Source of the DNA: Plantactinospora sp. BC1
GTDB taxonomy: Bacteria > Actinomycetota > Actinomycetes > Mycobacteriales > Micromonosporaceae
Length of the DNA: 64,000 nucleotides
Assembly: GCF_003030345.1 (NCBI RefSeq)
Contig: NZ_CP028158.1
Location: 6,076,001-6,140,000, forward strand
Direction: 5' to 3'
The notes beneath the pieces are model-generated. The model saw only the letters and a list, made by a program, of their open reading frames with translations, had not been told where the DNA came from and made no database searches. The translations under genes and the position numbers were made by a program. Of the stretch, positions 3,064 to 24,537 are shown one piece after another (the first letter of the stretch is position 1; the number at the start of each line of letters is the position of its first letter).

Positions 3064-3064
3064 G

Positions 3065-3245: not shown

Positions 3246-3268
3246 ACTCGCGTCTGGCCGGGACCGGT

Positions 3269-3940: not shown

Positions 3941-3968
3941 CAGGCTCTCATCGCAACCGTCGGTAAGG

Positions 3969-4388: not shown

Positions 4389-4405
4389 CGTTGCTCCTCA
4401 ATCGG

Positions 4406-8197: not shown

Positions 8198-8248
8198 GTG
8201 GCGGGTAGAGGATTCGAACCTCTGTAGCTTTCGCGACGGATTTACAGT
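8198..8248 (-). repeat. attL: 51-bp copy of the tRNA-Tyr 3' half
   Basis: Identical over 51 bp to 24456-24506 within tRNA-Tyr. It runs from the anticodon loop to the discriminator base plus one. The base pairs after the discriminator differ: here the minus strand continues CACGG rather than CCA, so this displaced end does not encode CCA. It is not a functional tRNA because the 5' half is missing. Confidence 0.93.
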
Positions 8249-8409: not shown

Positions 8410-8658
8410 GTGACTGCCTTTGAAGTGTGGTTTGAAGACGGACCCGTTGACGGGCGGATGTTGGCTGTCGAGGTGGATGCCTCTGGTCGGTTGCCCGAAG
8501 TCGTCTGTCTACCCCAGACAGGGGCCTACATCGGCGCGAACGACCTTGCTGCGCCACGCGTCGATCATCGCTACCTCCTTAGGCGGGATATAGATCACGA
8601 GGTGACGTACCAGTATCTGGACAGCATGGAACCTCCTAATCACTGCTCACGCCACTGA
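8410..8658 (+). CDS. Hypothetical protein, AICE cargo
   Basis: 82 residues from GTG 8410, with CAGGAG 9-14 nt upstream. Sequence: TAFEVWFEDGPVDGRMLAVE at the N-terminus, a strand-rich middle (LPEVVCLPQTGAYIG) and LRRDIDHEVTYQYLDSM near the end. Acidic, probably a small beta-rich domain. First gene inside the left end of the element. No family recognised. Confidence 0.6.
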   Translation: MTAFEVWFEDGPVDGRMLAVEVDASGRLPEVVCLPQTGAYIGANDLAAPRVDHRYLLRRDIDHEVTYQYLDSMEPPNHCSRH

Positions 8659-8710
8659 CGCCAAGGCGACACAACGCCACACGTGGGCCTAGACCTGGTT
8701 CCATGTACCC

Positions 8711-8947
8711 ATGGTCGGAAAGGTGCTGCCTACCCGCGAGCGCGCCCAGCGCTTCCCCGTGCCTCGGTCGTGGGCGACGACTACGCTTCTGGCGTTGACG
8801 GCTGCAAACCTTGGTGCACTTGCCGTCATCGGGAACAAAAAGGACGTTGCTACACCATACGCTATCGCTCTTGCACTGGCAGTTCTCGCGCTAGCCGCTG
8901 AGTTGATAGACCATGGACGTAGCCTCTGTGTCACCAACCGCATCTGA
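8711..8947 (+). CDS. Small membrane protein, AICE cargo
   Basis: 78 residues from ATG 8711. Two predicted membrane helices: WATTTLLALTAANLGALAVI and PYAIALALAVLALAAELI, joined by a short NKKDV loop. The N-terminus is basic (TRERAQRF). Ends 9 nt before the 260-residue cargo gene, so probably co-transcribed with it. Function unknown; a small two-pass partner would suit a membrane-linked effector or sensor system. Confidence 0.6.
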   Translation: MVGKVLPTRERAQRFPVPRSWATTTLLALTAANLGALAVIGNKKDVATPYAIALALAVLALAAELIDHGRSLCVTNRI

Positions 8948-8956
8948 GGGAGCGGC

Positions 8957-9739
8957 ATGACGGCCGAGAGTGAAACCGGCATAGAGCCACCCTCCGAGCT
9001 TCAAAAGCGATCGGGTGCCGCCTTCGATCGAATCGTAGGCAACTCAGTAAACACAGGCATATCCGCTTGGATCACCGCGACAACAGGATCACCTGAAACG
9101 GGCGCCGCGATCGGCGGGATGCTGGGTCCATTGGCCGAGGAACTCTCCTTCGCTGTCCGCCGAGCAGTGGACTTTCAGCAGGCACGCGGCAGCCAATTGC
9201 TGATAGAAGCAGCGTCGTCGTCAGAGACATCGCTTGACGACCTACTGGATAAACTTGTGAACGACCCAGTTCGACTACAACTCCTTCTTAGATCGCTGGA
9301 GGTCGCCGCGAGAGCCACTACAGATTACAAACTCTCACTAGTGGCTAACCTTTTGGCAACAGGCGCTTTAGCTACAGATAGCGCAGCCGTTGACGAACAG
9401 CTACTCGTGGTGGATGCCCTTGGCGCACTAGAGACTCCACATTTCCGCCTAATGCTTATCCTGAAACACCCGTCTCCGGTTTGGTGGACAAGCCCGGACG
9501 AGCGAAAAGCGTATCGCCAGGCGTGGCCTGAAGCTCGTATCCTGGAGCGAGATGACGGGCTAAGGAACGTCTTAACGGCACTCCTCGCACGGTTACAGAG
9601 CCTGGGTTTAGCCCGCGACGTTAGCTTGACAGCATCACCTGATCCCCTTTGGGAACTCACCACGTTCGGACGACTTAGCGTGAATGCACTCGGAGAGTTC
9701 AACCGCACGAACCACCCGGCCAATCCAACAAAAGAATAG
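8957..9739 (+). CDS. Unknown 260-residue protein, AICE cargo
   Basis: ATG 8957 with GGGAG upstream. The N-terminal ~85 residues contain a Gly/Ala-rich, weakly hydrophobic stretch (TGSPETGAAIGGMLGPLAEE) that could associate with membrane. The rest is helical, with LIEAASSSETSLDDLLDKL, YKLSLVANLLATGALATDSA and a final all-alpha region ending in FGRLSVNALGEFNR. Contains rare TTA codons (e.g. in the stretch encoding LQSLGLARD) and is AT-richer than the host genes. The next gene's ribosome binding site overlaps its stop codon. No domain recognised; an AICE cargo gene of this type may serve phage defence or stress response, but that is only a guess. Confidence 0.72.
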   Translation: MTAESETGIEPPSELQKRSGAAFDRIVGNSVNTGISAWITATTGSPETGAAIGGMLGPLAEELSFAVRRAVDFQQARGSQLLIEAASSSETSLDDLLDKLVNDPVRLQLLLRSLEVAARATTDYKLSLVANLLATGALATDSAAVDEQLLVVDALGALETPHFRLMLILKHPSPVWWTSPDERKAYRQAWPEARILERDDGLRNVLTALLARLQSLGLARDVSLTASPDPLWELTTFGRLSVNALGEFNRTNHPANPTKE

Positions 9740-9746
9740 GAAGACA

Positions 9747-11225
9747 ATGCCAGAGGCCGAGTCCGTAGACGCTACTCCCGAAGAAATCAACGATGCAACT
9801 ACAACGCGCAGCCATCGGATCAATACAGAGAATCTCCTGATACTCACAATAGAGATTGCAGTCAGGAACCTGACCGACAGTCTCGACAAATCAAGGCGAC
9901 TTATCGAGATTTCCGAGAACGAGCGCGAGAACGCGAGACAGTCGATCCTTAGACCCTACATCAGGCGCTTGACGGCACGAGAGCGAGTTAGCATCGAAGC
10001 GACAATCAGCAGGCTTGATAAGTCGCGGGTCGATCGATTAGTCGAACGTCTCACCGCCCTCGTTGAGAAAAAGGGGGTAGAGAAACCAAAGAGGGCCGAC
10101 GATCAGATATACCCCATTTCCACCGAGCAGATACAGGCCGCTACGGCCGAGGAATATATGGAGGTCGAGAAATCAATCTGGGCCGAGATCCAAAGGACAT
10201 ATGCAGACCAGGAGGTACACTTAGGATTCGCCACGCGCTACTATATGATTCTCTCACAGCCAAACCTTACCGAGCACCTCGCCGAGTCGCTTCTATCGAA
10301 AGCCATTTACTCACTCGAAGAATGCGTAGGCGCACTCACCCGATGCATCCTAACTGGCGCCGGAGCAGAAACGTTGGGAGATCTTCCGCCCGTACCCTTC
10401 AAGGTAGTCGAGTCCTACGGCAGCAACTCGTCAACCAATGACATTATGAGATGGGCGGTCGACCGACGAGTCGAAGAGTTTGTTCGGGGAGGACCACAGG
10501 AATGGAGCGAATCTGTCGAACGATGGTGCGGATTCTGCCTGGATCCCGTCTGCGGTAACTGGACACAGATCCGAGAGGCAGTTGCACGGACACGTCTATT
10601 TACCAGAGGAACTGCTCGGCGGGTTGACGGACAATATCTGGCCGAGGTGGAGGGCACCGTCCATGCGAATGTCAAACCATGGGACACCCTCAGGACCGAC
10701 TCTAAGTATCTTCTGTCTCTACTCGACGAAATTGAGGTAGGGGTTTTGTGTCTATCGCTGCGCTGGGCACAACACTTCTTTCCCGATCCAGCGGTTAACG
10801 TTGACTCCTTTCTAGACCGTGCAATCGGCTTCGAGCGCAAGAAGCGATGGCAGTTTGCGCAGATGGTATGCGAAGCGCTTCTTGATACCTTCGTTCACCG
10901 AGATCATCCGGACTTCAACCTTACAACCCTTAACGTATGGTACTGCAAGCAGGAGTTAGGGAGCGAGACCGAGGCAGATCGCCGCGCAATCGACGGGTTT
11001 CAGCCAGACGATGCATACGAGGCGATCGGGAAGGCCGCGTTGTTGCGGGAGTCGGGACAAATTGCTGCCGCAATTCAAACGTACGGACGGACGGTCAAAG
11101 ACCATTCTTGGCTAATCCAGCTTCCGATAATTCAACGATCGCTACATGATCATCCTACCCTCAGGTCCCTGTTCCCGAAGACCAAAACTAGACGTCGAGG
11201 CGCGCGTAGTCGTAATTCTCGCTAG
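9747..11225 (+). CDS. Large unknown protein with N-terminal coiled coil, AICE cargo
   Basis: 492 residues from ATG 9747; AGGAAG immediately upstream overlaps the stop of the preceding gene, which decides this start over ATG 9684. Residues ~25-125 are long charged helices with coiled-coil character (LTDSLDKSRRLIEISENERE and SRVDRLVERLTALVEKK). The middle holds several Trp/Cys motifs (ESVERWCGFCLDPVCGNW). The last ~120 residues look like TPR-type helical pairs (AYEAIGKAALLRESGQIAAA). It ends in a basic tail (KTKTRRRGARSR). TTA codons present. Probably an effector or scaffold acting with the upstream 260-residue protein; no family recognised. Confidence 0.75.
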   Translation: MPEAESVDATPEEINDATTTRSHRINTENLLILTIEIAVRNLTDSLDKSRRLIEISENERENARQSILRPYIRRLTARERVSIEATISRLDKSRVDRLVERLTALVEKKGVEKPKRADDQIYPISTEQIQAATAEEYMEVEKSIWAEIQRTYADQEVHLGFATRYYMILSQPNLTEHLAESLLSKAIYSLEECVGALTRCILTGAGAETLGDLPPVPFKVVESYGSNSSTNDIMRWAVDRRVEEFVRGGPQEWSESVERWCGFCLDPVCGNWTQIREAVARTRLFTRGTARRVDGQYLAEVEGTVHANVKPWDTLRTDSKYLLSLLDEIEVGVLCLSLRWAQHFFPDPAVNVDSFLDRAIGFERKKRWQFAQMVCEALLDTFVHRDHPDFNLTTLNVWYCKQELGSETEADRRAIDGFQPDDAYEAIGKAALLRESGQIAAAIQTYGRTVKDHSWLIQLPIIQRSLHDHPTLRSLFPKTKTRRRGARSRNSR

Positions 11226-11324: not shown

Positions 11325-11735
11325 TCAAACTGGACGGATCAGCTCTGTCTTGTCGGCTGGATAAATCTCGGTCGTGCCATCCGGGTGGTGCACCTCGATC
11401 AAGGGCACTCCCGCGTCCATGTCGCGTTCGACGCGCTCTGGGTCGGTGGGCATGCGCGCAACTGCCCGTCCACCGGGCGGTAACTCGACCGGCACCCGCT
11501 CGGGCGGTGTCCGCACTCGGGACCGTTCTCCACGTTCGGTGCTGACGAGTCCCTCGCTACGGAGCAGGGCAAGCGCTTGGCGGACAGCATCCCGGCCGAC
11601 GCCGTACTCCTGAGAGAGGGTGACCTCGCTCGGCAGCGGCGCTCCTGCCTCGTACTGCCCAGAGTAGATGCGCTCGCGGATGAGATTCGCGAGCTGGCGG
11701 TACACAGGCGTGTGCGAGCGCCGATCGATCGACAT
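11325..11735 (-). CDS. GntR-family repressor of the AICE
   Basis: 136 residues from ATG 11735. Residues ~8-75 are a GntR winged helix-turn-helix: VYRQLANLIRERIYSGQYEA, PLPSEVTLSQEYGVGRDAVR, then ALLRSEGLVSTERG. The remaining ~60 residues are too short for a UTRA or FadR effector domain; they contain MPTDPERVERDMDAGVPLIE and a DGTTEIYPAD strand, a tail common in small actinobacterial GntR proteins. Divergent from the 158-residue gene over a ~160-bp region with overlapping palindromes, so it probably represses itself and the divergent unit, as KorSA does in pSAM2. Confidence 0.85.
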   Translation of the reverse strand: MSIDRRSHTPVYRQLANLIRERIYSGQYEAGAPLPSEVTLSQEYGVGRDAVRQALALLRSEGLVSTERGERSRVRTPPERVPVELPPGGRAVARMPTDPERVERDMDAGVPLIEVHHPDGTTEIYPADKTELIRPV

Positions 11736-11775
11736 GGACGGCAGCCTTGCTGACAGATACAGCCCTGTGTCCTTG

Positions 11776-11800
11776 TGGCCATATGGCCATAGGGCTATGG
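11776..11800. promoter_or_regulatory. Overlapping palindromes, candidate GntR operator
   Basis: TGGCCATATGGCCA (11776-11789) is a perfect 14-bp palindrome. CCATAGGGCTATGG (11787-11800) is a second dyad (6-bp arms, 2-bp spacer) sharing three bases with it. Both lie 41-65 bp upstream of the GntR repressor start, in the divergent control region. Binding is inferred from symmetry and position. Confidence 0.65.
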
Positions 11801-11896
11801 TCGACGTTACGGAAAGTGCTCATGCTGCGACGCAGATTCGCGCCGGAGCACCCTTCCGTGTGCCCGAGGACCCGGATCAACCGACGGAGAGCAACA

Positions 11897-12373
11897 GTGG
11901 ATCAAGACACGTACACCCCCGACCGGGTGACCAGAAGCGAGCGACGCACGACTAACCAGGTGTCCAGGTCGACCTACGGCTACGACGAGCACAGCCAGCC
12001 ATCCGGACCGCCCAACCGGCGAGGCATCTACGAAGCGGCGAGCCGGACCGTCCCTCCGACACAGGTCGAAGTCTTCGACGTGTTCGAGCCCCTTCCCCGC
12101 AAGGCGCTCGACGCATTCGCCGGCCGCTTCCGAGCAGCGCCGCGATTCGTGCTGCTGATTCCGATCGAGGCGGGCAACCTCGAAGAGGCGGTGAACCTCG
12201 CCGTACTCCTCGGCCGATCCCTGCGCTACATGCCCGAGATGCGTGCCCGAGACGAGCTGGTCATGGACGCTCAGGCCGAGACGTTCCACGATGCGTTCTG
12301 TGACCTCGTGCTCCCCGGCAACCTCGATTGTGCTCGACAGGCCGGGCACCCTGGGAGATGCGAAACTCTGTAA
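11897..12373 (+). CDS. Hypothetical AICE protein
   Basis: 158 residues from GTG 11897, preceded by GGAGAG at 11886-11891. N-terminal ~55 residues polar and disordered-looking; then TQVEVFDVFEPLPRKALDAF, a strand RFVLLIPIEAGNLEEAVNLA, and a C-terminal LDCARQAGHPGRCETL with two Cys and one His. Such a tail recurs in small actinobacterial element proteins. Function unknown; location between the GntR repressor and the triple-GntR protein suggests a regulatory or accessory role. Confidence 0.6.
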   Translation: MDQDTYTPDRVTRSERRTTNQVSRSTYGYDEHSQPSGPPNRRGIYEAASRTVPPTQVEVFDVFEPLPRKALDAFAGRFRAAPRFVLLIPIEAGNLEEAVNLAVLLGRSLRYMPEMRARDELVMDAQAETFHDAFCDLVLPGNLDCARQAGHPGRCETL

Positions 12374-12519
12374 GAGCAGCCAGCCACGGGCCAGAAGTGT
12401 GGGGTACAGAGTTGAGGCCGAGTAAGCGGCTGTCGCAGCCTGAGCCGTGCGGGTAGTTGAAGCGGGTCCGGACGGCGGGGAGACTAGGTCCGTCGTCCGG
12501 ACCAAGGCTAGGGAGGCAC

Positions 12520-13242
12520 GTGGGCGGGCAAGGTGGCAGCGGCATCGGCTTCCGTGAGATTGCACAGGAGCTACGGGAGGCAATCCAGTCCAAGACCCTG
12601 CCTCCCGGCTCGCCCCTCCCCTCTGAGACAGATGTCGTCAAGCGGTGGCGCGTTGCTCGCGTCACCGCACGGCGCGCGCTGGCCGCGCTCGAAGCGGAGA
12701 ACTTGATTGAGACCGTTCCCGGGCGGGGACGGTTCGTACGTGGCCCGGGAGGCACCTCAGAGGAGCGCACCGGGGCGAAGTTCGAGGCGGTTGCGGCTGC
12801 TGTTCGACGGTCGATTGACAGCGGCGCATTTCCGCCCGGCAGTCGTGTTCCGAGCGAAGCTGAGTTGAGTGAACAGTTTCAGTCGTCGGTAGGGACGGTC
12901 CGGCAGGCGTTACGCGCTTTAGAGAGTCGCGGAATCCTCGTCTCCTTACGGGGCAAGGGGAGGTACGTTCCGCAGGATTCGGGGTCTGGTCCGGTTGCCA
13001 CGGATGCCGAACGAATCGCTGCCGAAATTCGTGTCGCTATCGAGCGTGGGGAGTTGGCCGCAGGCGTGGGCCTGCCTGGCGAGATGGAACTAGCGGAAAG
13101 GCACGGAGTGGCACGGGGTACAGTGCGCCGTGCCTTGACGGCCCTGGAGCGCGCCGGATTGATAGAGACTGTCAGAGGGAAGGGGCGCTTCGTGGTCGAG
13201 CAACTTGCGTCACACGCGAACGATGAAGCAAGAGGCTCCTGA
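12520..13242 (+). CDS. Regulator with three tandem GntR-type winged-helix domains
   Basis: 240 residues from GTG 12520 (GGGAGG at 12511-12516). Three successive GntR wHTH units fill the protein: (1) IAQELREAIQSKTLPPGSPL to ETVPGRGRFVR, residues ~14-75; (2) VAAAVRRSIDSGAFPPGSRV to SLRGKGRYV, ~90-150; (3) IAAEIRVAIERGELAAGVGL to ETVRGKGRFVVE, ~165-235. Each has the PSE(A/T)-type recognition entry and a terminal G-x-G-R-(F/Y) wing. There is no effector-binding domain. It could contact extended or multiple operators as a monomer. Overlaps the APH-like gene as TGATG, so the two are translationally coupled. Confidence 0.85.
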   Translation: MGGQGGSGIGFREIAQELREAIQSKTLPPGSPLPSETDVVKRWRVARVTARRALAALEAENLIETVPGRGRFVRGPGGTSEERTGAKFEAVAAAVRRSIDSGAFPPGSRVPSEAELSEQFQSSVGTVRQALRALESRGILVSLRGKGRYVPQDSGSGPVATDAERIAAEIRVAIERGELAAGVGLPGEMELAERHGVARGTVRRALTALERAGLIETVRGKGRFVVEQLASHANDEARGS

Positions 13243-14141
13243 TGGGCGCGTCCGACTCGCCTTTCAGCTCGGACGAGGCGGTAAAGGTTCTAGGCGAGGC
13301 TTGCCGAACGATCGGGGTTTCTACCAAGGACGCAGCGCTGATCCGGCTCGGCGAGAATGCGATCTTCCGCCTTCCCGCTGCGAATTTGATCGTCCGGATC
13401 GCTCGTGGTGTCGATGTTATTGAGGACGCCCGGAAAGAGGTACGCGTATCGGACTGGTTGCGGAATGCCGGGTTGCCCGCGGCCCGGACTGCGGATTTCC
13501 CTCAGCCCATTGTCGCGCTGGACCATCCTGTCACCTTCTGGCATCCGATCGTGGACAGCGGACGTAAGGCGCGTGCCGCCGGGCTAGCAGCCGTCCTGCA
13601 CGAGCTTCACGCTCTGACACCATCGGCGGATCTCAAACTTCCGGCGCTGAACATGTTCGGTCGCGTGCAAGAACGGATTGACCAGGCGTCAGACCTTGAC
13701 CCGAGGGATGTTGATTTTCTTCGGAGACGGCTGGACGAGCTCACCGCCGAATACAGCGGACTCGCCTACTCGTCCCTACCGTGCGCCGTGCACGGGGACG
13801 CTCACGTACAGAATCTCATTGTTGATCCGGCCGGCACCGCCGTGCTGATCGATTTCGAGCGTTTCGCGTTTGGCCACCGGGAAACGGATCTCTCCGTCAC
13901 CGCGACCGAGTATGAGATTGGGTGGCATACCGATCAGGACTACGCCGAGTTCTGCCAGGTTTACGGCTACGACGTGCGGGCCTGGGAGGGGTTTCCCGTG
14001 CTGCGGGGGCTCAATCAGCTCAAGATGACGACATGGCTGATGCAAAACGTCCGTGAGGGGCCAGCGGTTGCCAAGGAGTTCCGAAATCGCTTGGAGACGC
14101 TACGCGACCCCACCTCCCGCCGCCGCTGGGCTCCCTTCTGA
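13242..14141 (+). CDS. APH-like phosphotransferase (kinase) family protein
   Basis: 299 residues from ATG 13242, overlapping the upstream regulator. Kinase-like fold of the aminoglycoside phosphotransferase/choline kinase superfamily: ATP-side strands LIRLGENAIFRLPAANLIVR, catalytic loop AVHGDAHVQNLIVD (Brenner motif HGD...N) and metal-binding IDFERFAFGHRETDL. Family members phosphorylate aminoglycosides, macrolides, homoserine, choline or hydroxyurea; coupling to a GntR-type regulator, seen in many Streptomyces and Micromonospora elements, does not fix the substrate. The 3' end overlaps the convergent XRE/TPR gene by 42 bp. Confidence 0.82.
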   Translation: MGASDSPFSSDEAVKVLGEACRTIGVSTKDAALIRLGENAIFRLPAANLIVRIARGVDVIEDARKEVRVSDWLRNAGLPAARTADFPQPIVALDHPVTFWHPIVDSGRKARAAGLAAVLHELHALTPSADLKLPALNMFGRVQERIDQASDLDPRDVDFLRRRLDELTAEYSGLAYSSLPCAVHGDAHVQNLIVDPAGTAVLIDFERFAFGHRETDLSVTATEYEIGWHTDQDYAEFCQVYGYDVRAWEGFPVLRGLNQLKMTTWLMQNVREGPAVAKEFRNRLETLRDPTSRRRWAPF

Positions 14142-15506
14142 CGGCAAGAGCACTTCGTCCGCAAGGCGCAGGAACGGCACCACCACCGCGCTCGCCTGGT
14201 GTGGCGCAAAGTCGCCGCACAAGTCTCGGATGTAGCGGAGATAGCGCTCTGACTTGAGGCTACCGGCAAGGGTGATGGCCTCGATCCCTGCACCAGCAGC
14301 ACGCTCTAGATCAGACTCATGAATGCAACTCGCGCAGAGGACGAGGCGCATGAAGGCGAGCGTCCGCACATAGGTTGGATCGGATAGAGCTACAGCCTTA
14401 CCGACGAACTCCTGTGTCAGCTTTGGTTTACGGAGATCTCGGAAACAGTGCGCCATCTCCCCGGCTAACTCAGCTTCATCAAAGTAATCGATCCATGGTG
14501 GGTCATCGGCTGAATTACGGCGGCCAAATACGGTCTCTGCCGCAGCAAGCACGGCGGCGCATCCTTTCTCATCGCCTGATCCCGCTAATGCCCGTGCCTC
14601 CATGGACAGCAGCATTGTCATTACCGTTGCGCTGGCAGCGCCCTTTCCGCCCTCTTGCGCGGCTCTCGCCAACTGGGCTGCTTCGGTAAACCGGCCAAGG
14701 TAGTTGGCCTGGTGGCTCAGGTTGGAGAGGATGCGGCTGCCCATCACGCGGTCTTGCCCGGCCTGTGCCAGGCGTAGCGCCTGGATTAGGTACCGCTGCG
14801 CCAGGCCGTGCCGTCCGGCGTCGTACGCGGTCCAACCGAGTAGTTGCGCGACTTCCGAAGCAGCCGAGAAGAGTCGCTTCCCGACGTTTTCGGTGAACCT
14901 CCCGTCCAGCAGCGGCAGCACCTCGGCCGCGAAGTACTGCGCCAGAGCGCTACGGGCGTGTCCTCCGCCGTACTGGAAATCGAGACGCATGAACATCTTG
15001 TTCGTTGCGCAGATGGCCTCAACGTCGGCCATTCCTACTCGACGTGCCGTAGCACCGGTCTCCGGGACCGGTTCGGGGCGAGACAGGAGCCATGGAAGCA
15101 GGGGCGCTGACCAGGCGGCCGGGACGGCTGGTGACGTGAGGACATCAGGCAGGTTCGACAGGTCATGGCGTGCGAGTTCCAGCAGCCGAATCCGTGCTCC
15201 CGCGACATCATCCGGGTACTGAAGCGCGCTTTCGAACGTCGCCATGGGAGATGCCTCCCCCATGCCGATGTCTTCGACGCTGACCCGGAAGCCGCCCTTC
15301 TCCGACAGGGCTTCCGCGATGAATCCGGCCGTCTGCGTGCGAGGCTGCGACCCATCCAGCCATCGCTTGACGGTGACGTGATCGCACTTCAGCTCTGTTC
15401 CGTGCCGCGCGGCAACCGCGCGGACCCGTGCGGCAAGTCCCTTGTTGGAGCAGTTGACTCGGGTCATCACCTCAGCCAAGGACAGGTTCGGCTGAAGTTC
15501 GGGCAC
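14100..15506 (-). CDS. Helix-turn-helix regulator with TPR-like C-terminal domain
   Basis: 468 residues from GTG 15506, chosen because AAGGAGGGG lies 5 nt upstream (an in-frame TTG at 15524 would include that Shine-Dalgarno). N-terminal ~65 residues form an XRE-like HTH: VNCSNKGLAARVRAVAARHG, CDHVTVKRWLDGSQPRTQT. Residues ~150-450 are helical repeats of TPR type (YDAGRHGLAQRYLIQALRLA, ILSNLSHQANYLGRFTEAAQ, CFRDLRKPKLTQEFVGKAVA). Proteins of this architecture regulate development and mobile elements in actinomycetes. Transcribed away from the conjugation genes over a ~280-bp promoter region. Confidence 0.8.
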   Translation of the reverse strand: MPELQPNLSLAEVMTRVNCSNKGLAARVRAVAARHGTELKCDHVTVKRWLDGSQPRTQTAGFIAEALSEKGGFRVSVEDIGMGEASPMATFESALQYPDDVAGARIRLLELARHDLSNLPDVLTSPAVPAAWSAPLLPWLLSRPEPVPETGATARRVGMADVEAICATNKMFMRLDFQYGGGHARSALAQYFAAEVLPLLDGRFTENVGKRLFSAASEVAQLLGWTAYDAGRHGLAQRYLIQALRLAQAGQDRVMGSRILSNLSHQANYLGRFTEAAQLARAAQEGGKGAASATVMTMLLSMEARALAGSGDEKGCAAVLAAAETVFGRRNSADDPPWIDYFDEAELAGEMAHCFRDLRKPKLTQEFVGKAVALSDPTYVRTLAFMRLVLCASCIHESDLERAAGAGIEAITLAGSLKSERYLRYIRDLCGDFAPHQASAVVVPFLRLADEVLLPSEGSPAAAGGGVA

Positions 15507-15788
15507 GTCCCCTCCTTGATCCAATTGTCCTGAGTAGTCAAGTCCTCACGCACTCCATAGTCAAGGTCGTTCGCATCTCCCCTGCCGCGCGCACCCCGGG
15601 AAGCACCCCCGGACGCACCCACGCACCCCCGAAATCACCCTGCCGGCTGCTGCTCAGGCGCGGTTTGCTTGTCCCACAGCCAAGCCGAGGTCAGGCCGAG
15701 CACCCCGGGATCGCCGGGGCAGCACTTGACAGACCAGAGGTAGACATGTTCTAACTTAGATAGGTCATGGCTACATGAGAGGTGAACG
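15507..15788. promoter_or_regulatory. Divergent control region between XRE/TPR regulator and AICE backbone
   Basis: On the minus strand TTGACTA occurs twice (15564-15558 and 15541-15535, 23 bp apart), consistent with -35 or operator repeats for the XRE gene. On the plus strand TTGACA (15726-15731) with TCTAAC 18 bp later is a plausible promoter for the DUF6284-led backbone operon. A perfect dyad TCATG-GCTA-CATGA lies at 15765-15778, between promoter and the GAGAGG ribosome binding site. The middle (15590-15650) is only C-rich. Confidence 0.6.
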
Positions 15789-16019
15789 ATGGACAGGCAC
15801 ACGGACGAGCCCACCCCGGCAGACCTGGACGCGATCGAGGCGGAGTGGCCGCTCATCGACGCCGAACTCTCCCTGCTCGACGCGGAGATCAGGGCTCTGT
15901 ACAGCGACGGCGGACCGTCGCCGTTGGACCGGCGCCGCATCCGGCGTGCGGAGCAGCGGGTGATGCGGATGGCCGCGACGTTGGGCAGCCCGGTCACGCC
16001 GACCCGGCTCGCGGCGTAG
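15789..16019 (+). CDS. DUF6284-like small AICE protein
   Basis: 76 residues from ATG 15789 with GAGAGGTGA upstream. The run TPADLDAIEAEWPLIDAELS followed by LLDAEIRALYSD is the hallmark of this small acidic helical family found at the head of AICE backbones; the C-terminal third is basic (LDRRRIRRAEQRVMRMA). Function unknown, always linked to transfer/replication genes. First gene after the divergent control region. Confidence 0.78.
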   Translation: MDRHTDEPTPADLDAIEAEWPLIDAELSLLDAEIRALYSDGGPSPLDRRRIRRAEQRVMRMAATLGSPVTPTRLAA

Positions 16020-16031
16020 GTGGTGGCTCCG

Positions 16032-16262
16032 ATGACGCGCCGCTACCCGGTTTCGGTTTCGGCCCCGGCCAAAGACACCCGGTTCACGTTCGGCCTGGTG
16101 ATGGACGTTGCCGAAGTGCTGGCCGCGCACGGCTGCCCGGTAAGGACCGCCGACGAGTACGACGGCCAGGGCCGCGACCTGCTCGGTCTGCAAATGGCTC
16201 TGTACCGGCTGATCCACATCCCCGAAGCCGGCCCCGCCGGCTTGATGCGAGAGGACGCGTGA
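16032..16262 (+). CDS. Small conserved AICE protein
   Basis: 76 residues from ATG 16032; a GTG at 16020 would add four residues. RRYPVSVSAPAKDTRFTFGL, then VMDVAEVLAAHGCPVRTADE and DLLGLQMALYRLIHIP. Probably a small alpha/beta protein. The stop overlaps the next start (TGATG). Recurrent in this class of element; no known function. Confidence 0.68.
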   Translation: MTRRYPVSVSAPAKDTRFTFGLVMDVAEVLAAHGCPVRTADEYDGQGRDLLGLQMALYRLIHIPEAGPAGLMREDA

Positions 16263-17086
16263 TGACCACCCCGACCCTGAACAGCGCGTACCCCCGGTCC
16301 GTGGAAGACCTGCTGCCGGCCGCGCGGGACCTGGCCGATCGGACCGGCGAGATTCCCTCCCGGAACCGGCTCATGAAGGAGTTCAAGGTGGGCGGGCCGA
16401 AGGCACGCGCCATCCTGTCTGCCCTCCGGCAGCCCTCCCCCGTCGCACTTCCGGCGCCGAACGAGCCGAGCGGCGAGACCCCGCAGAACCAGCCAGACCC
16501 CGAAGCGGACCCGGGTTCGGCGACGACGCCGGCCGCCGCCCCGCCGACAGAGAAGCCCGCCACCGACGAAACGTCGCCGGAGTCGTCGCCGCTGCCCATC
16601 CCGCCCGCAGACCCGGGCGCCGCCGGCACCCCGGAGCAGGGTCGCAAGCCGCGCCCGGCGGTGCGGTCGTGGGTCCTGCTGCTGTTGGCCGCTCCCGCGT
16701 TCGTGGCCATCTGGTCCGGGTGGGTCGGACTCGGCGGACTCACCGGGTTCGGCGTGGTCCACCCGCTGCCGGGCATCTGGGACTCGCTGAGCATCAACAC
16801 GGCGATCACCCTGCCCATCGGCGTCGAGGCGTACGCGGCCTACGCCCTGCGGGCATGGCTCTCCGGCGACGCGGTACCGATCCGGGCGCGCAGGTTCGCC
16901 CGGATCTCCGGGATCGGCTCCTTGATGCTCGGCGCACTCGGGCAGATCGCCTACCACCAGATGACCGCCGCCGGGATGACCTCCGCCCCGGCGTGGATCA
17001 CGACCATCGTCGCCTGCCTCCCGGTCGCTGTGCTCGGCATGGGGGCGGCGCTGGCTCACCTGCTCCACACGAACGACCAGCCCTGA
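16262..17086 (+). CDS. Spd-like/DUF2637-type membrane protein with N-terminal helix-turn-helix-like region
   Basis: 274 residues from ATG 16262. Residues ~12-60 resemble a small DNA-binding helix pair (VEDLLPAARDLADRTGEIPS, NRLMKEFKVGGPKARAILSA). A ~75-residue Pro/Glu/Ala-rich linker follows. Four membrane helices fill the rest: SWVLLLLAAPAFVAIWSGWV, INTAITLPIGVEAYAAYALR, ISGIGSLMLGALGQIAYHQM and WITTIVACLPVAVLGMGAAL. Such proteins accompany TraB in AICEs and are thought to aid intramycelial spread. Precise role unproved. Confidence 0.72.
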   Translation: MTTPTLNSAYPRSVEDLLPAARDLADRTGEIPSRNRLMKEFKVGGPKARAILSALRQPSPVALPAPNEPSGETPQNQPDPEADPGSATTPAAAPPTEKPATDETSPESSPLPIPPADPGAAGTPEQGRKPRPAVRSWVLLLLAAPAFVAIWSGWVGLGGLTGFGVVHPLPGIWDSLSINTAITLPIGVEAYAAYALRAWLSGDAVPIRARRFARISGIGSLMLGALGQIAYHQMTAAGMTSAPAWITTIVACLPVAVLGMGAALAHLLHTNDQP

Positions 17087-17092
17087 CTTTGC

Positions 17093-17138
17093 CCGGCGGC
17101 GCGGCTCCTGGCCTCGCAAACCCGTGCCGCGCCGCCGG
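17093..17138 (+). terminator. Hairpin between spd-like gene and traB
   Basis: Perfect 13-bp inverted repeat CCGGCGGCGCGGC (17093-17105) / GCCGCGCCGCCGG (17126-17138), 20-nt loop, no T-run. It lies 7 bp after the upstream stop and 51 bp before traB, so it may attenuate rather than end transcription, lowering TraB expression. Confidence 0.6.
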
Positions 17139-17188
17139 CCCCCTTCCGATCCGAGATCCACAAAATCCCTGATGGAGGAACCCTCATC

Positions 17189-19369
17189 ATGGCAAGCAAC
17201 CCTGATGACCGCTTCGACTGGGAGGCTTACGAAGCCGACCTGACCCGGCAGGCCGACGCGGACGTGGTCGACCTGGACGACGAACGCGCCCGCCGGGCGC
17301 CGCGCCGCCGCGACCGGCCGACCGGCGCCGCTGCCGGCACGCACTTCGACGTACCGCTCGACGAGGCGCCACAGCCCGGCGGCGCCCTGGTCGACGTTCC
17401 GCCGGCCGGGCCGGACGGACGCCGGCCGATTGTGCCAACCAGCTTGCGCGGCTGGGCGAACCTCCGCGCCACGGTCCGCTACGCCGTTGGGTTGACCGCC
17501 TACCGCACCGGCTACCACGCCCTGCGTTCCCCGTGGTACGCCACGCAGGCCGGATTCTGGGCCAGCGTTGGCCTGTTCCGGCTGCTCGGCCGACAGCTCC
17601 GTTGGTGGTGGCTCTCCGAACAGTACGGGCTACGCCAAGCGGCTGCCGACGCGAAAGACGCGCAACTGTGGCTGAAGCTGCACCGGGAGGTCAAGGCAAC
17701 CCGGGCATGGCGCGGCACCGTGCTCGCCGCCGAGCTGGGCGCACTCGCCATCGGTGCGCCGGTTCTGTGGCCGCTCACCCCGTGGTGGGTGAAGGCAACC
17801 GCCGCCGTACTCGGCGTGTCCTACCTCGCCCACATCGGCCGCCCCGCCGACCGACGGATCATAAGCCCTGCCACCGTCGCCGGCCGGTTCCGCCGGGTGA
17901 ACCCGGACATCATCCTCCGCGCCTACTACGCCGCCGGCCTGGGACACCCTGACCGGCCGAACCAGCAGATCACCTTCGGGTCGACCATGGCCCGGGACGC
18001 GTCCGGTACCGGCTCTCAGGTGTTAATCGATCTGCCGTTCAACGGCAAGACCTGGGAAGACGTCCTGAAGGCCAAGCCCGCCATTGCGGCCGGCATGGAC
18101 GTGTCGGTGAATCAGGTGTTCGTGACCCGTGACCCGTCCTCACACCGGCGACACCTGCTGTTCGTCGCCGACCGCGACCCGCTCGCCGTCCCGGCCGGCA
18201 AGACGCCGCTGCTGGACTGCAAGGTCCGGGACATCTGGGCGGAAGCGCCGTTTGGGCTGGACGAGCGGGGACGCAAGGTCACCCTTGCCCTGATGTGGAT
18301 CTCGGTCCTGATCGGTGCGCAGCCGCGCAAGGGCAAGACGTTCGCCACTCGCCTACTGGCGCTGTTCGCCGCACTTGACCCGTACGTGACGCTGCTGGTG
18401 GCCGACGGGAAGATGTCGGCCGACTGGGACAAGTTCCGCCTGGTCGCCCACCGGTACGTCTGCGGCGTGGTGCCCAACAGCCGCGACAACGACCCGATTC
18501 CGCATCTGCTCGACATGCTCCGCGAGATCAAGCGTCACATCGAGCAGGTCAACGACCTCCTTGCCAAGCTGCCGACCTCGGAGTGCCCGGAAGGGAAGAT
18601 CACCCGGGACCTGTCCCGGAAGTACCCCCAGCTTCGGGTGTGGCTGCTGGTCCTGGAGGAGTTCCAGACCTACTTCGAGACTGACGACCAGGACGTGAAC
18701 AAGGAGATTGCCGGCCTGCTCAGCTTCATCATGGCTGTCGGTCCGTCCGCCGGGGTCATCATCCTGTCGTCGTCGCAGAAGCCGTCCGGGGTCGGTGCCG
18801 GGGACGTGGCACGGCTGTTCAACCGCTACCGCGACAACCACGCCGTACGGTTCGCGCTCAAGTGCGGCAACCGGGTCGTCTCGGAGGCGATCCTCGGCGG
18901 GGACGCGTACGCAGAAGGGTTCGACGCCTCCACCCTGCCCAACGGCAGGGACTACCGGGGCGTGGGCATCCTCTACGGCGCCTCCGACGACACCGCCACC
19001 GTCCGGACCTACCTCGCCGACCACACCGACGCGGAGAAGATCCTCAGCGCTGCCCGCAAGCACCGGGAACGGGCCGGAACGCTGACCGGCGACGCTGCCG
19101 GGGAAACCGTCGCCCGAGAGGTCCGCGACGTGCTCGCCGACGTCCGGGCCGCGTTCCACCCCGGAGAACCCGGCCTGCACTGGACCACCATCGCCGCACG
19201 GCTGGCCGAACGGATGCCCGAGCACTACGCCGACCTGACCGCCGACGCCGCCTCTGCTCTCCTTCGCGAGCATGTACCGAGCGTGAGCGTCAAGGTGCGC
19301 GGAACGGTCAACCGGGGCGCCCGGCTCAAGGACCTGGACGACGCGATCAACCGACGCAAGAGCGCCTGA
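17189..19369 (+). CDS. traB: TraB/TraSA-type conjugative DNA translocase (FtsK/SpoIIIE family)
   Basis: 726 residues from ATG 17189; GGAGG at 17173-17177. N-terminal ~100 residues acidic then basic, followed by membrane segments (FWASVGLFRLLGRQLRWWWL; LAAELGALAIGAPVLWPLTP). The motor domain has Walker A GAQPRKGKT at ~375-383 and Walker B LRVWLLVLEEFQ at ~484-495, plus GVIILSSSQKPSG (sensor-like). A C-terminal ~90-residue winged-helix region (LAERMPEHYADLTADAASAL) probably reads the transfer sequence. TraB hexamers pump double-stranded DNA between mycelia without relaxase, the mode typical of Streptomyces plasmids and AICEs. A nest of GGTAGCG repeats lies directly downstream. Confidence 0.93.
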   Translation: MASNPDDRFDWEAYEADLTRQADADVVDLDDERARRAPRRRDRPTGAAAGTHFDVPLDEAPQPGGALVDVPPAGPDGRRPIVPTSLRGWANLRATVRYAVGLTAYRTGYHALRSPWYATQAGFWASVGLFRLLGRQLRWWWLSEQYGLRQAAADAKDAQLWLKLHREVKATRAWRGTVLAAELGALAIGAPVLWPLTPWWVKATAAVLGVSYLAHIGRPADRRIISPATVAGRFRRVNPDIILRAYYAAGLGHPDRPNQQITFGSTMARDASGTGSQVLIDLPFNGKTWEDVLKAKPAIAAGMDVSVNQVFVTRDPSSHRRHLLFVADRDPLAVPAGKTPLLDCKVRDIWAEAPFGLDERGRKVTLALMWISVLIGAQPRKGKTFATRLLALFAALDPYVTLLVADGKMSADWDKFRLVAHRYVCGVVPNSRDNDPIPHLLDMLREIKRHIEQVNDLLAKLPTSECPEGKITRDLSRKYPQLRVWLLVLEEFQTYFETDDQDVNKEIAGLLSFIMAVGPSAGVIILSSSQKPSGVGAGDVARLFNRYRDNHAVRFALKCGNRVVSEAILGGDAYAEGFDASTLPNGRDYRGVGILYGASDDTATVRTYLADHTDAEKILSAARKHRERAGTLTGDAAGETVAREVRDVLADVRAAFHPGEPGLHWTTIAARLAERMPEHYADLTADAASALLREHVPSVSVKVRGTVNRGARLKDLDDAINRRKSA

Positions 19370-19371
19370 TC

Positions 19372-19533
19372 GGTAGCGGCGGCGCTGCTACCAGGTAGCG
19401 CCGCCGCTACTTCCCCCGCTACCACCCTGGCCAGCCGCTACCCACACCGGTAGCGGGTAGCGCCAACAGCCCCGTGCACCCAAAAACCGGCCCCAGGAGG
19501 CTTTCCGTGGCACCCCTCGCCGCTACCGCTACC
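19372..19533. repeat. GGTAGCG repeat nest after traB, candidate clt locus
   Basis: GGTAGCG or its complement CGCTACC occurs at 19372, 19394, 19417, 19436, 19449, 19456, 19521 and 19527; GCTACC also at 19387. Inside it is a perfect 14-bp inverted repeat, GTAGCGGCGGCGCT (19373-19386) / AGCGCCGCCGCTAC (19397-19410). In Streptomyces plasmids the cis-acting transfer locus bound by TraB consists of short repeats beside traB. The hairpin may also terminate traB transcription. Confidence 0.72.
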
Positions 19534-19791
19534 TCCGCCTTCCCCCACGACTCAGCCGCCGCCGCTCTCCTCCTACTCGCCCTGCTCACCATCACGCTCG
19601 GCTACCTCGCTACGTGCTGGCTCTTCCCGTTCGTCGCCTGCCGACGCTGCCACGGAACCGGCCGCCGCCGCGCACCGTTCGGCCGCGCCTTCCGACTCTG
19701 CTCCCGCTGCGACGGAGACGGCTACCGGCTCCGGCCCGGCCGCCTGGTCCTCAACTACCTCCGCAACCTGCACGACAAGGGCACCCGATGA
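19507..19791 (+). CDS. Small membrane protein with CxxC zinc-ribbon-like motifs
   Basis: 94 residues from GTG 19507; AGGAGG at 19495-19500 fixes the start. One membrane helix (ALLLLALLTITLGYLATCWL) is followed by a CRRCHGTGRRR ... CSRCDGDG pair, i.e. two C-x-x-C-x-G-x-G units like a minimal DnaJ-type zinc finger. Downstream of traB and coupled (ATGA) to the next gene. Proteins of this type recur in AICEs between traB and rep; a role in spread or replication control is conceivable. Confidence 0.7.
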   Translation: MAPLAATATSAFPHDSAAAALLLLALLTITLGYLATCWLFPFVACRRCHGTGRRRAPFGRAFRLCSRCDGDGYRLRPGRLVLNYLRNLHDKGTR

Positions 19792-20081
19792 ACCACCACA
19801 CCGGACACACCGGATGGTGCGCCCGAGACCACCGCTGCAACCTCACCGAGCACCGATCCGAAGAGATCATCGTCAACCTGCCGGGGCACGGACGGGCCGT
19901 GCTGAACCGGGTCCGCACCGACGGCGGCACCGAGTACGCCGAGCTGCGCATGCGGGTAGCCCTGGCCCCGACGGAACCGGCCGCCCGCCGACAACTGGCC
20001 GCGATCCTCACCAGCGCCCGCGATCTGGTCACCCGTGCCGCACTCGCTGGCCGGCCCACCCCGCGCCGGACCGCCCGATGA
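19788..20081 (+). CDS. Conserved small AICE protein
   Basis: 97 residues from ATG 19788, overlapping the upstream stop as ATGA, and itself overlapping the next gene the same way. N-terminus HTGWCARDHRCNLTEHRSEE is Cys/His-rich and may bind metal; then strands EIIVNLPGHGRAVLNRV and YAELRMRVAL, and a helical C-terminus (ARRQLAAILTSARDLVTRA). No assigned function; position within the replication operon suggests a replication or copy-number role. Confidence 0.68.
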   Translation: MNHHTGHTGWCARDHRCNLTEHRSEEIIVNLPGHGRAVLNRVRTDGGTEYAELRMRVALAPTEPAARRQLAAILTSARDLVTRAALAGRPTPRRTAR

Positions 20082-21121
20082 CCGCCACCCACCGACCCGC
20101 CACCCCGGCCGCCGCTGTCCGTGCGGCCCGTGGCTGGCCGATGTGCGACGCCGGTTGCGGCTGGCCGGTCGACCCGGCCGCCGGCACCGACCGACACCCG
20201 ACATGCCAACCCGACCCCCGAGAGGACGAAGCCGTGTCCGAGCTGCTCCAGCCAGCGTTGCAGTACGCCGCGCAGGGCTGGCCGGTGTTCATGCTCGCCC
20301 GGTCCAAGCGCCCGGTAGCCAACTGCCGCCCGTGCGCGGACCCGGACGACAGCCATGACCCGGCCGGCTGTGACTGCCTCACCTGTCACGGCTTCTACGC
20401 CGCGACCACCGACCCGCTACGGGTGGCCGGCATCGTCGCCGCTGTCCCCGCCGGGCAACTCGCGGTGCGGACCGGCGCCCCGTCCGGCCTGGTCGTGGTC
20501 GACGTCGACCCGCGCCACGGTGGCGACGACACCATGACCGCCCTGATCCGCGCAGGGCTGCTACCGCCCACCGCGCACGTGGTCACCGGGTCGGGTGGTC
20601 GGCACCTGTACTACCGGCACCCCGGACGGCCGGTGCGGTGCAGCCAGGGCAAGCCCGGAGCAGGGCTCGGACCGGGCATCGACGTCAAGGCCGATGGCGG
20701 GTATGTCGTGCTTCCGCCGTCGGTGCACCCGCGCACCGGCCGCCCGTACCAGTGGGTACCGGGTCGGCAGGTGGAGGAGATGCCTCCCGCGCTGGTCGAG
20801 GCGTGCGAACCGGCGCCGCCGGCACCCGAACCGACCCGGCCGACGGGACCGATCAGCACCCGCACGGCGGGAGGCATCTCCCATCCCGACCGGCTCCTAG
20901 CCGCACACCTGCACGCAGTGACCAACGCCCCGGAAGGCGCCCGCCGGACCACGTTGTACGGCGCCGCCCGTGGCGTGGCTCGGATGGTCGCCGCGCACGC
21001 CATCGACCAGGCCGACGCCGTGGCCGCACTGACCGACGCCGGCCGCCGTGCCGAGCAGACCGAACGGGACATCCGCGCCGCCATCCGTGGCGGATTCCAG
21101 GCTGAAGGAGTCGCAGCATGA
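20078..21121 (+). CDS. Bifunctional DNA primase/polymerase (prim-pol), AICE replication
   Basis: 347 residues from ATG 20078. N-terminal ~50 residues carry a small Cys pair (GWPMCDAGCGWPV). The prim-pol domain spans ~50-245: LQPALQYAAQGWPVFMLARS, a Cys-rich insert (CRPCADPDD, CDCLTCHG), the metal-binding acidic motif GLVVVDVDPRHGGDD, VVTGSGGRHLYYRHP, and GIDVKADGGYVVLPPSVH. The last ~90 residues are helical, as in RepA-type primases. Coupled to the DUF3631 ATPase, giving the prim-pol/helicase pair that replaces RepSA in many AICEs. Confidence 0.9.
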   Translation: MTATHRPATPAAAVRAARGWPMCDAGCGWPVDPAAGTDRHPTCQPDPREDEAVSELLQPALQYAAQGWPVFMLARSKRPVANCRPCADPDDSHDPAGCDCLTCHGFYAATTDPLRVAGIVAAVPAGQLAVRTGAPSGLVVVDVDPRHGGDDTMTALIRAGLLPPTAHVVTGSGGRHLYYRHPGRPVRCSQGKPGAGLGPGIDVKADGGYVVLPPSVHPRTGRPYQWVPGRQVEEMPPALVEACEPAPPAPEPTRPTGPISTRTAGGISHPDRLLAAHLHAVTNAPEGARRTTLYGAARGVARMVAAHAIDQADAVAALTDAGRRAEQTERDIRAAIRGGFQAEGVAA

Positions 21122-22443
21122 ACCAACACACCCTGCCCGGCCGCCGTATCGACGGCGCGGCGATCCTGGACGACCTACACGCCTGCCTGACCCGGTACGT
21201 CATCCTCCCGTCGCCGGAAGCCGTTGACGCCGTGGTGCTGTGGATCGCCGCCACGCACGCACAAACCGCGTGGGCACACGCGCCCCGGCTCGTGATCCGG
21301 GCGCCGGAGAAGCGGTGCGGCAAGAGTCGACTGCTCGACATCGTGGAAGGCACCTGCCACAACCCGCTGATCACCGTCAACGCGTCTCCGGCCGCCGTCT
21401 ATCGCGCCATTGGCACCGACCACCCGCCAACCCTGCTCGTCGACGAGGCGGACACCATCTTCGGCAACGGCAAGGCCGAAGCGAACGAAGACCTACGCGG
21501 ACTCCTCAACGCTGGCCACCAGCGCAACCGGCCCGCGATCCGATGGGATGCCGGCACTCAACGTCTGGAGAAAATCCCCACCTTCGCCATGGCCGCACTC
21601 GCCGGAATCGGCGCCATGCCCGACACCATCGAAGACCGCGCCGTAGTCGTCCGGATGCGCCGCCGTGCCCCCGGCGAGCAGGTAGCGCCGTACCGGCACC
21701 GCCGGGACGGGCCAGCGTTGCGGCGACTGGCCGAGCGGTTGACCGAATGGCTCGGCGCTCACCTGGTCGACCTGGAAGCCGCGGAACCCACCATGCCAGT
21801 TGAAGATCGCGCCGCCGACACCTGGGAACCCCTCGTAGCCGTCGCCGACCTGGCTGGCGGAATGTGGCCGACCCGCGCCCGGTGCGCCGTCACCACCCTG
21901 ACGGCGGAAGCCGACGACGCCGGCAACGTCTCCACCCGGGTACGCCTGCTCGGCGACATCCGCACCGCGTTCACCGTGCTCGGCGACCCGCCAGCCGCCG
22001 CGACGAGCGAGCTGCTGACCGTCCTCAACGGCGACCAGGAGGCGCCCTGGTCCGACAGCGGACCATCCGGGCTCACTGGCAAGCGGCTCGGTGACCTGCT
22101 CCGCGAGTTTGGGATCACCTCGGCCACGCTCCGCTTCCCCGTTGGGCAGGCCAAGGGCTACACCCGAGATGCCTTCGCCGACGCGTGGCAGAGATACTGC
22201 CCGGCACCGACGGCAGGGGTATCCGTCCCATCCGTACCAGCCTCGTTTCCGCAGGTCATCCCTGGTACGGATTCCCTGCCTGGTACGGATCAATCCGTCC
22301 CACGGACCCGCCCCGTCCGCGCCCCTGGTACGCATCAATCCGTACCAGCGCATCAATCCGTACCAGCCCTGAGCAGCCAAAACGAGCTTGGTACGGATGG
22401 GACGGATACCCCCCGCTCCCGCGTCGCCGGACGCCGGCAATGA
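21118..22443 (+). CDS. DUF3631-domain P-loop ATPase, putative replicative helicase
   Basis: 441 residues from ATG 21118 (ATGA overlap). Walker A APEKRCGKSR at ~62-71 and Walker B TLLVDEAD at ~104-111; then EDLRGLLNAGHQRNRPAIRW and a sensor/arginine-finger region IEDRAVVVRMRRRAPGE. A C-terminal DUF3631 wing (GDLLREFGITSATLRF) ends at ~370. The last ~75 residues (SVP/GTD-rich) are encoded by a nest of iteron-like repeats, so that tail may be dictated by the DNA rather than by protein function. Works with prim-pol in element replication. Confidence 0.87.
   Translation: MNQHTLPGRRIDGAAILDDLHACLTRYVILPSPEAVDAVVLWIAATHAQTAWAHAPRLVIRAPEKRCGKSRLLDIVEGTCHNPLITVNASPAAVYRAIGTDHPPTLLVDEADTIFGNGKAEANEDLRGLLNAGHQRNRPAIRWDAGTQRLEKIPTFAMAALAGIGAMPDTIEDRAVVVRMRRRAPGEQVAPYRHRRDGPALRRLAERLTEWLGAHLVDLEAAEPTMPVEDRAADTWEPLVAVADLAGGMWPTRARCAVTTLTAEADDAGNVSTRVRLLGDIRTAFTVLGDPPAAATSELLTVLNGDQEAPWSDSGPSGLTGKRLGDLLREFGITSATLRFPVGQAKGYTRDAFADAWQRYCPAPTAGVSVPSVPASFPQVIPGTDSLPGTDQSVPRTRPVRAPGTHQSVPAHQSVPALSSQNELGTDGTDTPRSRVAGRRQ
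22216..22412. repeat. Iteron nest inside a 24-bp inverted repeat, candidate AICE replication origin
   Basis: CTGGTACGGAT or a near variant occurs at 22262, 22280, 22325 (one mismatch) and 22388 (TTGG start), and its complement ATCCGTACCAG at 22230, 22338 and 22356. The nest is flanked by perfect 24-bp inverted arms at 22216-22239 (begins GGGGTATCCGTCCC) and 22389-22412 (ends GGGACGGATACCCC). The repeats lie in the 3' end of the helicase gene, next to the other replication gene, as expected of an iteron origin. Confidence 0.8.
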
Positions 22444-22679
22444 CCGCCCGACCGGCCACCGAACCGACCCGATCAGTAGCCCTGAGAGCACTCGGCCCGT
22501 CAATGGACACCCGTCGACCGAAGATCTCGCCGCTACGGGCCTCTCAGACCCCCATGCAAACGGCCTGTGCCGAGTTCGCTCGCTCAGCCAACACCTACCA
22601 CCCTGTCAGCCGGGACGGCGCTCACCGTGCGATTCAGGCGCCCCGGAATCCCCTTGCGCACGACGGAGGACAGCAACCG

Positions 22680-22874
22680 ATGGCCCCGCGCCGGATCGAG
22701 GAGTCCCTGACCATCCCCGAAGTCATTGGCGAACTGAAGGTGAGCCGGTCGACCTTCTACTACTGGCGACAGACTGGCAAGGCGCCCCGTTGCATCAAGC
22801 TTCCCAACGGAGAAATCAGGGTCCGTCGTGACGACCTCAACCTGTGGCTTGACGGACTTGAGGAGGCAGCGTGA
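22680..22874 (+). CDS. xis: Excisionase (Xis), MerR-like helix-turn-helix
   Basis: 64 residues from ATG 22680 with GGAGGA at 22664-22669. Typical small AICE excisionase: ESLTIPEVIGELKVSRSTFY, YWRQTGKAPRCIKLPNGEIR and a terminal RRDDLNLWLDGLEE. It bends DNA at the att sites so that integrase excises the element. The stop overlaps the GTG of int. An in-frame ATG at 22440 would give an 80-residue extension of random character, less likely. The 235 bp between helicase gene and xis show nothing else. Confidence 0.88.
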   Translation: MAPRRIEESLTIPEVIGELKVSRSTFYYWRQTGKAPRCIKLPNGEIRVRRDDLNLWLDGLEEAA

Positions 22875-24453: not shown

Positions 24454-24537
24454 TGGTGGCGGGTAGAGGATTCGAACCTCTGTAGCTTTCGCGACGGATT
24501 TACAGTCCGCTCCCATTGGCCGCTCGGGCAACCCGCC
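24454..24537 (-). tRNA. tRNA-Tyr (anticodon GTA)
   Basis: On the minus strand the gene starts GGCGGGTTGCCCGAG at 24537; the anticodon GTA is at 24503-24501 in CTGTAAA; a long variable arm (CGCGAAAGCTACAG region), the T arm GGTTCGAATCC, and acceptor ACCCGCC pair with the 5' GGCGGGT. Discriminator A is at 24457 and CCA is encoded at 24456-24454. The 3' 51 bp are the attachment site, so the mature tRNA is a host/element hybrid. Confidence 0.95.
24456..24506 (-). repeat. attR: 51-bp repeat within tRNA-Tyr
   Basis: Identical to 8198-8248. It covers the tRNA from the last base pair before the anticodon loop to the 3' end, so integration regenerates a full gene with an element-derived 3' half. Confidence 0.93.

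Follow-up and report, generated by a model that had tools for sequence, protein, structure and literature searches.

An exchangeable AT-rich cargo region encoding a predicted divergent HEPN-family protein at the attL end of an actinomycete integrative element in Plantactinospora sp. BC1

Actinomycete integrative and conjugative elements (AICEs) of one family differ in their cargo, which, in the available portion of a published account, includes restriction and AIPR abortive-infection genes (PMC9513070). HEPN RNases that have been tested depend on an essential histidine, and HEPN domains without the catalytic motif are described, in the available text of PMC3710099, as probably non-catalytic RNA binders, some such proteins still being toxic. 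The cargo analyzed here occupies positions 8410-11225 of a 64,000-nucleotide stretch of the Plantactinospora sp. BC1 chromosome (8,333,965 bases; the stretch, hereafter the window, begins at 6,076,001) and lies at the attL end of an AICE integrated at tRNA-Tyr. Our preferred reading, which is tentative and to which we assign a probability of about 0.45, is that this region is exchangeable, AT-rich cargo of defence type, whose HEPN-related part is non-catalytic or decaying.

The AICE cargo regions of PMC9513070 resemble this locus in that one element family carries varied cargo, whereas neither a fixed attL-side slot nor the two protein families described below are named in the available portion of that article. 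The families HEPN_RiboL-PSP (PF18735) and RTasHEPN of PADLOC (PDLC03820) are matched by relatives of the 492-residue cargo protein; the window protein itself matches neither and has no R-x4-H site, and no gene for a reverse transcriptase was noticed next to it. Abi_alpha (PF14337), for which "abortive infection alpha" is Pfam's label, shows remote profile similarity to the family of the 260-residue cargo protein, although the Pfam model is unmatched. Finally, the slot of an element in genome G785 (L069), encoding GmrSD_N, HEPN_MAE_28990 and C5 methylase proteins, likewise is AT-rich, lies next to a tRNA-Tyr att site and holds a HEPN gene, but its HEPN family is another one, matched strongly by Pfam (1.6e-23), and the partner genes are of restriction type. 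New here are a HEPN relative predicted to be dead, an unnamed family of 260-residue proteins, and a slot between attL and the GntR gene.

The element is bounded by identical 51-bp direct repeats, of which the right copy falls in an intact tRNA-Tyr and forms its 3' part, and the four cargo genes lie within its left end, where the earlier note on this DNA had placed them. From left to right, the element comprises the cargo, a GntR regulator, a triple GntR-like protein, a phosphotransferase-like protein, a helical protein, Spd, FtsK, a primase/Rep, an excisionase, and an integrase; only GntR was named by profile, the other backbone names being given by reading. Features of AICEs found here were integration at a tRNA with direct repeats, integrase, excisionase, Rep, and FtsK-type transfer genes (by reading), and a block conserved in a sister element. 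The positions of the features are as follows:

8198..8248, minus strand: attL, a copy of the 3' part of tRNA-Tyr from anticodon to 3' end (51-bp repeat identical to 24456-24506)
8410..8658, plus strand: 82-residue open reading frame (ORF) with a GTG start (alternative GTG at 8362, giving 98 residues); membership in a module unsupported
8711..8947, plus strand: small 78-residue protein with two weak hydrophobic segments (ORF, hydropathy)
8957..9739, plus strand: 260-residue protein of an unnamed mobile- and defence-associated family, probably remotely like the C-terminal half of Abi_alpha (relatives, profile comparison)
9747..11225, plus strand: 492-residue predicted divergent HEPN-family protein without the R-x4-H site (relatives, profile E 2e-19, motif table)
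10575..10607, plus strand: place at which the HEPN catalytic motif has been lost, residues 282-287 reading T-R-L-F-T-R inside the E277-G288 codons (alignment; other two frames without motif)
11325..11735, minus strand: GntR regulator marking where the cargo slot ends on the right (Pfam GntR 6.2e-17; 93% identical in the sister AICE of genome G399)
11325..24325, unstranded: AICE backbone from GntR to integrase, kept in the sister AICE of G399
24454..24537, minus strand: intact tRNA-Tyr containing attR at 24456-24506 (ARAGORN, repeat)

Comparison with the sister AICE of G399, a genome of the same genus, demonstrated that the backbone is shared and the cargo is not. Nine of the eleven backbone genes fell in the 80-93% identity range (GntR 93%, triple GntR 83%, phosphotransferase-like 81%, helical 90%, a 76-residue ORF 89%, Spd 85%, FtsK 90%, primase 90%, and Rep 86%), and the excisionase and integrase reached only 52%. 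DNA similarity between the two elements (89.7% over 476 nt) starts at 11325, immediately past the cargo, and leftward only the att stretch matches in the sequence compared. The G399 slot, delimited by the inner of two left repeats found, encodes a 906-residue NACHT protein (PF05729, 1.3e-7, above cut-off), a 176-residue hydrophobic protein, and others. The sister AICE keeps the backbone but has other genes in the slot, with similarity starting at 11325, which supports separate entry of the cargo, as the earlier note had proposed. In the shared backbone, the triple GntR gene (12457-13242, plus strand) encodes a single protein in which three GntR-like winged-helix stretches lie in tandem (by reading; the GntR queries gave self-matches).

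To obtain further elements, the stretches left of related integrases were taken; 22 elements were examined and the 11 with a clear repeat pair, from nine genomes, were used, while L063 and L064 were compared and then left out of the slot counts. Wherever a tRNA was found, these sister elements were located at tRNA-Tyr, -Arg, or -Ser. The element of G401 lies in tRNA-Tyr between 51- and 50-bp copies of the window att sequence, and its slot encodes a methyltransferase-like protein (Pfam below cut-off). Seven of the 11 slots supplied the 13 proteins given to Pfam, the slot proteins of L068, L071, L073, and L074 being left out. Four of the 11 slots, namely those of L069, L080 (AAA_21 and RloB), L076 (TIR_2 and NB-ARC, plus a second AAA protein), and G399, yielded defence-type domains above cut-off. 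The L066 slot gave a SLATT-like match below cut-off, and none of four slot proteins was matched with confidence by PADLOC. The three L069 genes (oriented 2536-5548) overlap by a few bases and possibly form a restriction system with a HEPN part. A protein encoded in the slot of the sister AICE (L065:445-1485), without a Pfam match at E 0.01, is alike, by reading, to one encoded near a 260-residue relative in G009 (L020:6157-7236).

The slot also stands out in base composition. The first 2.5 kb inside attL were lower in GC than the remainder in 11 of the 12 elements, that of the window included (Wilcoxon p 0.0024; exception L076), and the GC minimum started at most 3.5 kb from attL in nine of 12, compared with 3.0 expected, although these elements are kin and the figures overstate their independence. 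In the window, GC was 0.565 in this stretch and 0.674 in the rest of the element; the genes for the 82-, 78-, 260-, and 492-residue proteins had values of 0.58, 0.60, 0.56, and 0.54, respectively, against 0.62-0.68 in five neighbouring genes. The AT-richness on which the earlier note relied is therefore real. Rare codons are commoner in the cargo, but this contrast is partial: the 260- and 492-residue genes contain 7 TTA, 8 ATA, and 7 AGA among 754 codons, and 3 TTA and 3 AGA also occur among the 262 codons of the neighbouring gene at 12457-13242. The stretch between attL and GntR is an exchangeable, AT-rich place for cargo, in which defence-type genes appear to recur. We found no paper on such a slot in the literature on AICEs and defence, as far as its text was available, and related AICEs swapping genes there, often of defence type, would make it minable for new defence genes.

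Location inside an AICE, beside its regulators, would also fit genes that serve the element itself in transfer, entry exclusion, or maintenance. This is very improbable, since the sister AICE has the same backbone without these genes, and relatives of the cargo proteins occur in cyanobacterial plasmids and phage-like contigs, as well as outside AICEs.

We then focused on the 492-residue protein. Direct searches of the four cargo proteins against Pfam, PADLOC, PHROGs, and NCBIfam yielded nothing usable, weak matches to RETREG, UL73_N, RT_UG24, four PHROGs of unknown function, blaIMI, and TrbL being dismissed as chance; neither tblastn of the four proteins against plasmids nor phmmer of the 260- and 492-residue proteins against PDB sequences gave a match. 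The earlier statement that no known domain is visible thus held for direct searches and failed once relatives were used. In the class sample, weak relatives of the 492-residue protein were detected in two of 393 other genomes (E 8.6e-10 and 4.8e-4), and an alignment with these two reached three of 295 other genomes; tblastn with one relative retrieved four plasmids (two from Nostoc, one from Crinalium, and one from Kitasatospora), and two more relatives were found in the family of the host. When the window protein was left out and a profile was made from nine relatives, this profile recovered it at E 2e-19 over residues 97-443, with 2.2 as the best of 2000 shuffles. Judged by E value, PF18735 was matched by four of ten alignment members (best 0.0016) and RTasHEPN by three of ten (best 1.4e-4); the window protein had no PF18735 match up to E 10. 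As the profile of relatives recovers it at this level and some of them match HEPN models, the 492-residue protein is identified by homology as a very divergent member of the HEPN superfamily, which gives a domain identity to a protein unrecognised by all four libraries.

Other searches added no relatives: a pattern search of genome contigs with the 492- and 260-residue proteins confirmed none, viral contigs did not match the queries A1, P0003, A2, and P0005, and phages did not match the L008 protein or P0009, the two relatives searched there. The tetratricopeptide-repeat (TPR)-like character suggested earlier was discarded, as no TPR family matched, and the coiled-coil reading was dropped for lack of support, with no dedicated coiled-coil tool run. 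On Nostoc plasmids (L010:84-8517 and L011:1001-8361), genes for an Eco57I/TaqI-type methylase, a 183-residue protein, a HEPN relative, and a PLD/SNF2-type helicase are consecutive, forming a restriction-like cluster with a HEPN gene. The relative in G771 (L102:3317-4363, minus strand) has apparent zinc-ribbon stretches, by reading, before its HEPN part.

The catalytic motif differs sharply between the window protein and its relatives. R-N-x-x-x-H is kept in ten of ten relatives compared and an eleventh has R-H-V-F-T-H, so that R-x4-H is present in 11 of 11, whereas the window site reads T-R-L-F-T-R, all three key residues being lost. With this sequence in place of R-x4-H, the 492-residue protein should be catalytically dead as a HEPN RNase. 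A motif hidden in another frame was rejected: the other two plus-strand frames of 10501-10700 lack R-N-x-x-x-H, and the R-S-E-R-Q-L-H present in one has no family context. That the protein is still an RNase through other residues is hard to credit; the available text of PMC3710099 mentions toxicity in HEPN proteins that lack the motif, and an active site of another kind as a possibility, but the only R-x4-6-H strings in the window protein, at 448 and 464, lie outside the HEPN stretch.

Relatives of the 260-residue protein were found in seven of 296 class-sample genomes and in seven of 76 genomes of the host family, its own genome counted. The host chromosome carries two more copies (E 3.5e-9 and 9.9e-4, the second weak), located at G000:C1:3003254-3003883 (L036), beside a DUF4238 gene, and at G000:C1:6835939-6836322 (L103). 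Another relative is encoded on a Rhodococcus plasmid that also has a major capsid gene, and two viral contigs match this relative at 82 and 100% identity. Relatives were also present inside another AICE, beside GntR and Rep genes in G834, near integrases in G827 and G778, and near genes reading as E2/E1-type and SIR2-type. The family thus occupies mobile and defence-like loci. Hydropathy gave no membrane segment in the 260-residue protein, and the membrane tether raised as a possibility in the earlier note was abandoned.

Profile comparison suggested a remote kinship for this family. Over 100-126 columns, an alignment of 16 members matched nine Abi_alpha proteins with a probability of 69-78% (E values between 1.9e-5 and 4.5e-5); with nine family members the value was 43%. 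HEPN and integrase controls did not exceed 0.3%, and 60 column shuffles scored at most 15.6 compared with 41.4. The 260-residue family is probably remotely akin to Abi_alpha without being a member.

The four plus-strand ORFs of 82, 78, 260, and 492 residues reported earlier are present at their positions, and the tight linkage of the last three was confirmed: the gap between the 78- and 260-residue genes is 9 nt, and a ribosome-binding site, GGAAG, shares bases with the stop codon of the 260-residue gene and lies 7 nt ahead of the next start, the ATG at 9747. Close packing is limited to these three, the 82-residue ORF lying 52 nt from the next gene. This ORF had no relative in Pfam, PADLOC, PHROGs, NCBIfam, the plasmid collection, or 29 other loci (described below), and nothing links it to the remaining cargo genes. 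For the 78-residue protein, neither the plasmid collection nor the 29 loci gave a relative; of the two-pass membrane protein proposed earlier, two weak hydrophobic segments remain, and the 492-residue protein, like the 260-residue one, has none.

The 9-nt and 7-nt spacing and the ribosome-binding site overlapping a stop suggest joint expression. We infer co-expression of the last three genes, which would work as a module of abortive-infection type, and the cargo may defend against phage. Such a module would most likely shield the cell, or else the element, from phages or rivals by an abortive route. The 260-residue protein would be its conserved working part; the 492-residue protein, not cutting RNA at the usual HEPN site, may bind RNA or a partner and in this way sense or restrain; and the 78-residue protein would do no more than serve as a small membrane anchor.

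Several results weigh against this interpretation. All ORFs of at least 60 residues in 18 loci of the 260-residue family and 11 of the HEPN family, 8-20 kb each, were searched with both profiles (L014 and L022 represent the same or nearly the same plasmid; L099, missed by the nine-member profile, was found by phmmer), and both families occurred together in none of the 18 and none of the 11, the pair being unique to the window in this sample. The window cargo proteins match no PADLOC family or known anti-phage system model. The window 260-residue protein alone reached E 0.22 against the Abi_alpha profile (set of nine), no PF14337 match exists in the host, and no family member passes the Pfam model. 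AlphaFold2 gave unusable models for the 492-residue protein from its single sequence (predicted local distance difference test, pLDDT, 34.3) and the 260-residue protein with two relatives (pLDDT 38.7). No promoter-like site was found, the promoter and terminator scan being at chance level. The slot proteins submitted to Pfam were 13 picked by eye, without a control set from elsewhere in the elements. Finally, the 492-residue protein keeps 12 of 37 well conserved columns (at least 70% in the others), compared with 15 of 26 to 26 of 29 in relatives (L011, a near-copy of L010, excluded; L102 not included), which fits relaxed constraint.

This loss of most conserved columns and of all three motif residues would be expected if the 492-residue gene were a former HEPN defence gene in decay with its ORF still unbroken, and the 260-residue gene may then work or decay too; about half of AICE cargo genes are short, which the available portion of PMC9513070 takes as a sign of pseudogenes. 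We regard decay as unlikely, though a serious competitor, given that the reading frame runs through all 492 codons uninterrupted by a stop or frameshift, the ribosome-binding site is good, and the overall profile match is still strong. The co-occurrence data bear on another reading, that two separate single-gene modules, each protein acting alone, were stacked by chance in one slot. Each family occurs without the other in every other locus examined, and the closest 260-residue relatives (G827 and G846) have no recognisable partner alongside; on the other side, the spacing of the genes suggests joint expression, and a protein changed as strongly as the 492-residue one may have changed through gaining a partner. 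Chance stacking is about as doubtful as decay. Taken together, these two are nearly as likely as a protective module in which the 492-residue protein is a non-catalytic partner.

A more specific proposal, which we likewise consider improbable, and slightly more so than either of these, is that the HEPN protein gave up RNA cleavage and was recruited by an Abi_alpha-like partner to sense RNA, or to act as a brake, without catalysis, in a two-part system unmatched in the libraries searched. The lost HEPN site poses the question of whether a dead HEPN protein can still be part of a defence. The earlier observation was sound, and its reading of the region as separately acquired, defence-like cargo was strengthened by the setting, namely the four of 11 sister slots, the HEPN relative, and the remote likeness to Abi_alpha. 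A conserved, undescribed four-gene system was not supported: the set of genes is not conserved in any of the 29 other loci, which leaves the defence association of each gene unaffected.

Outside the element, to the left of attL, a cluster at 3969-6602 reads as arsenic resistance, with ArsC-, GNAT-, aquaporin-, ArsR-, and glyoxalase-like ORFs.

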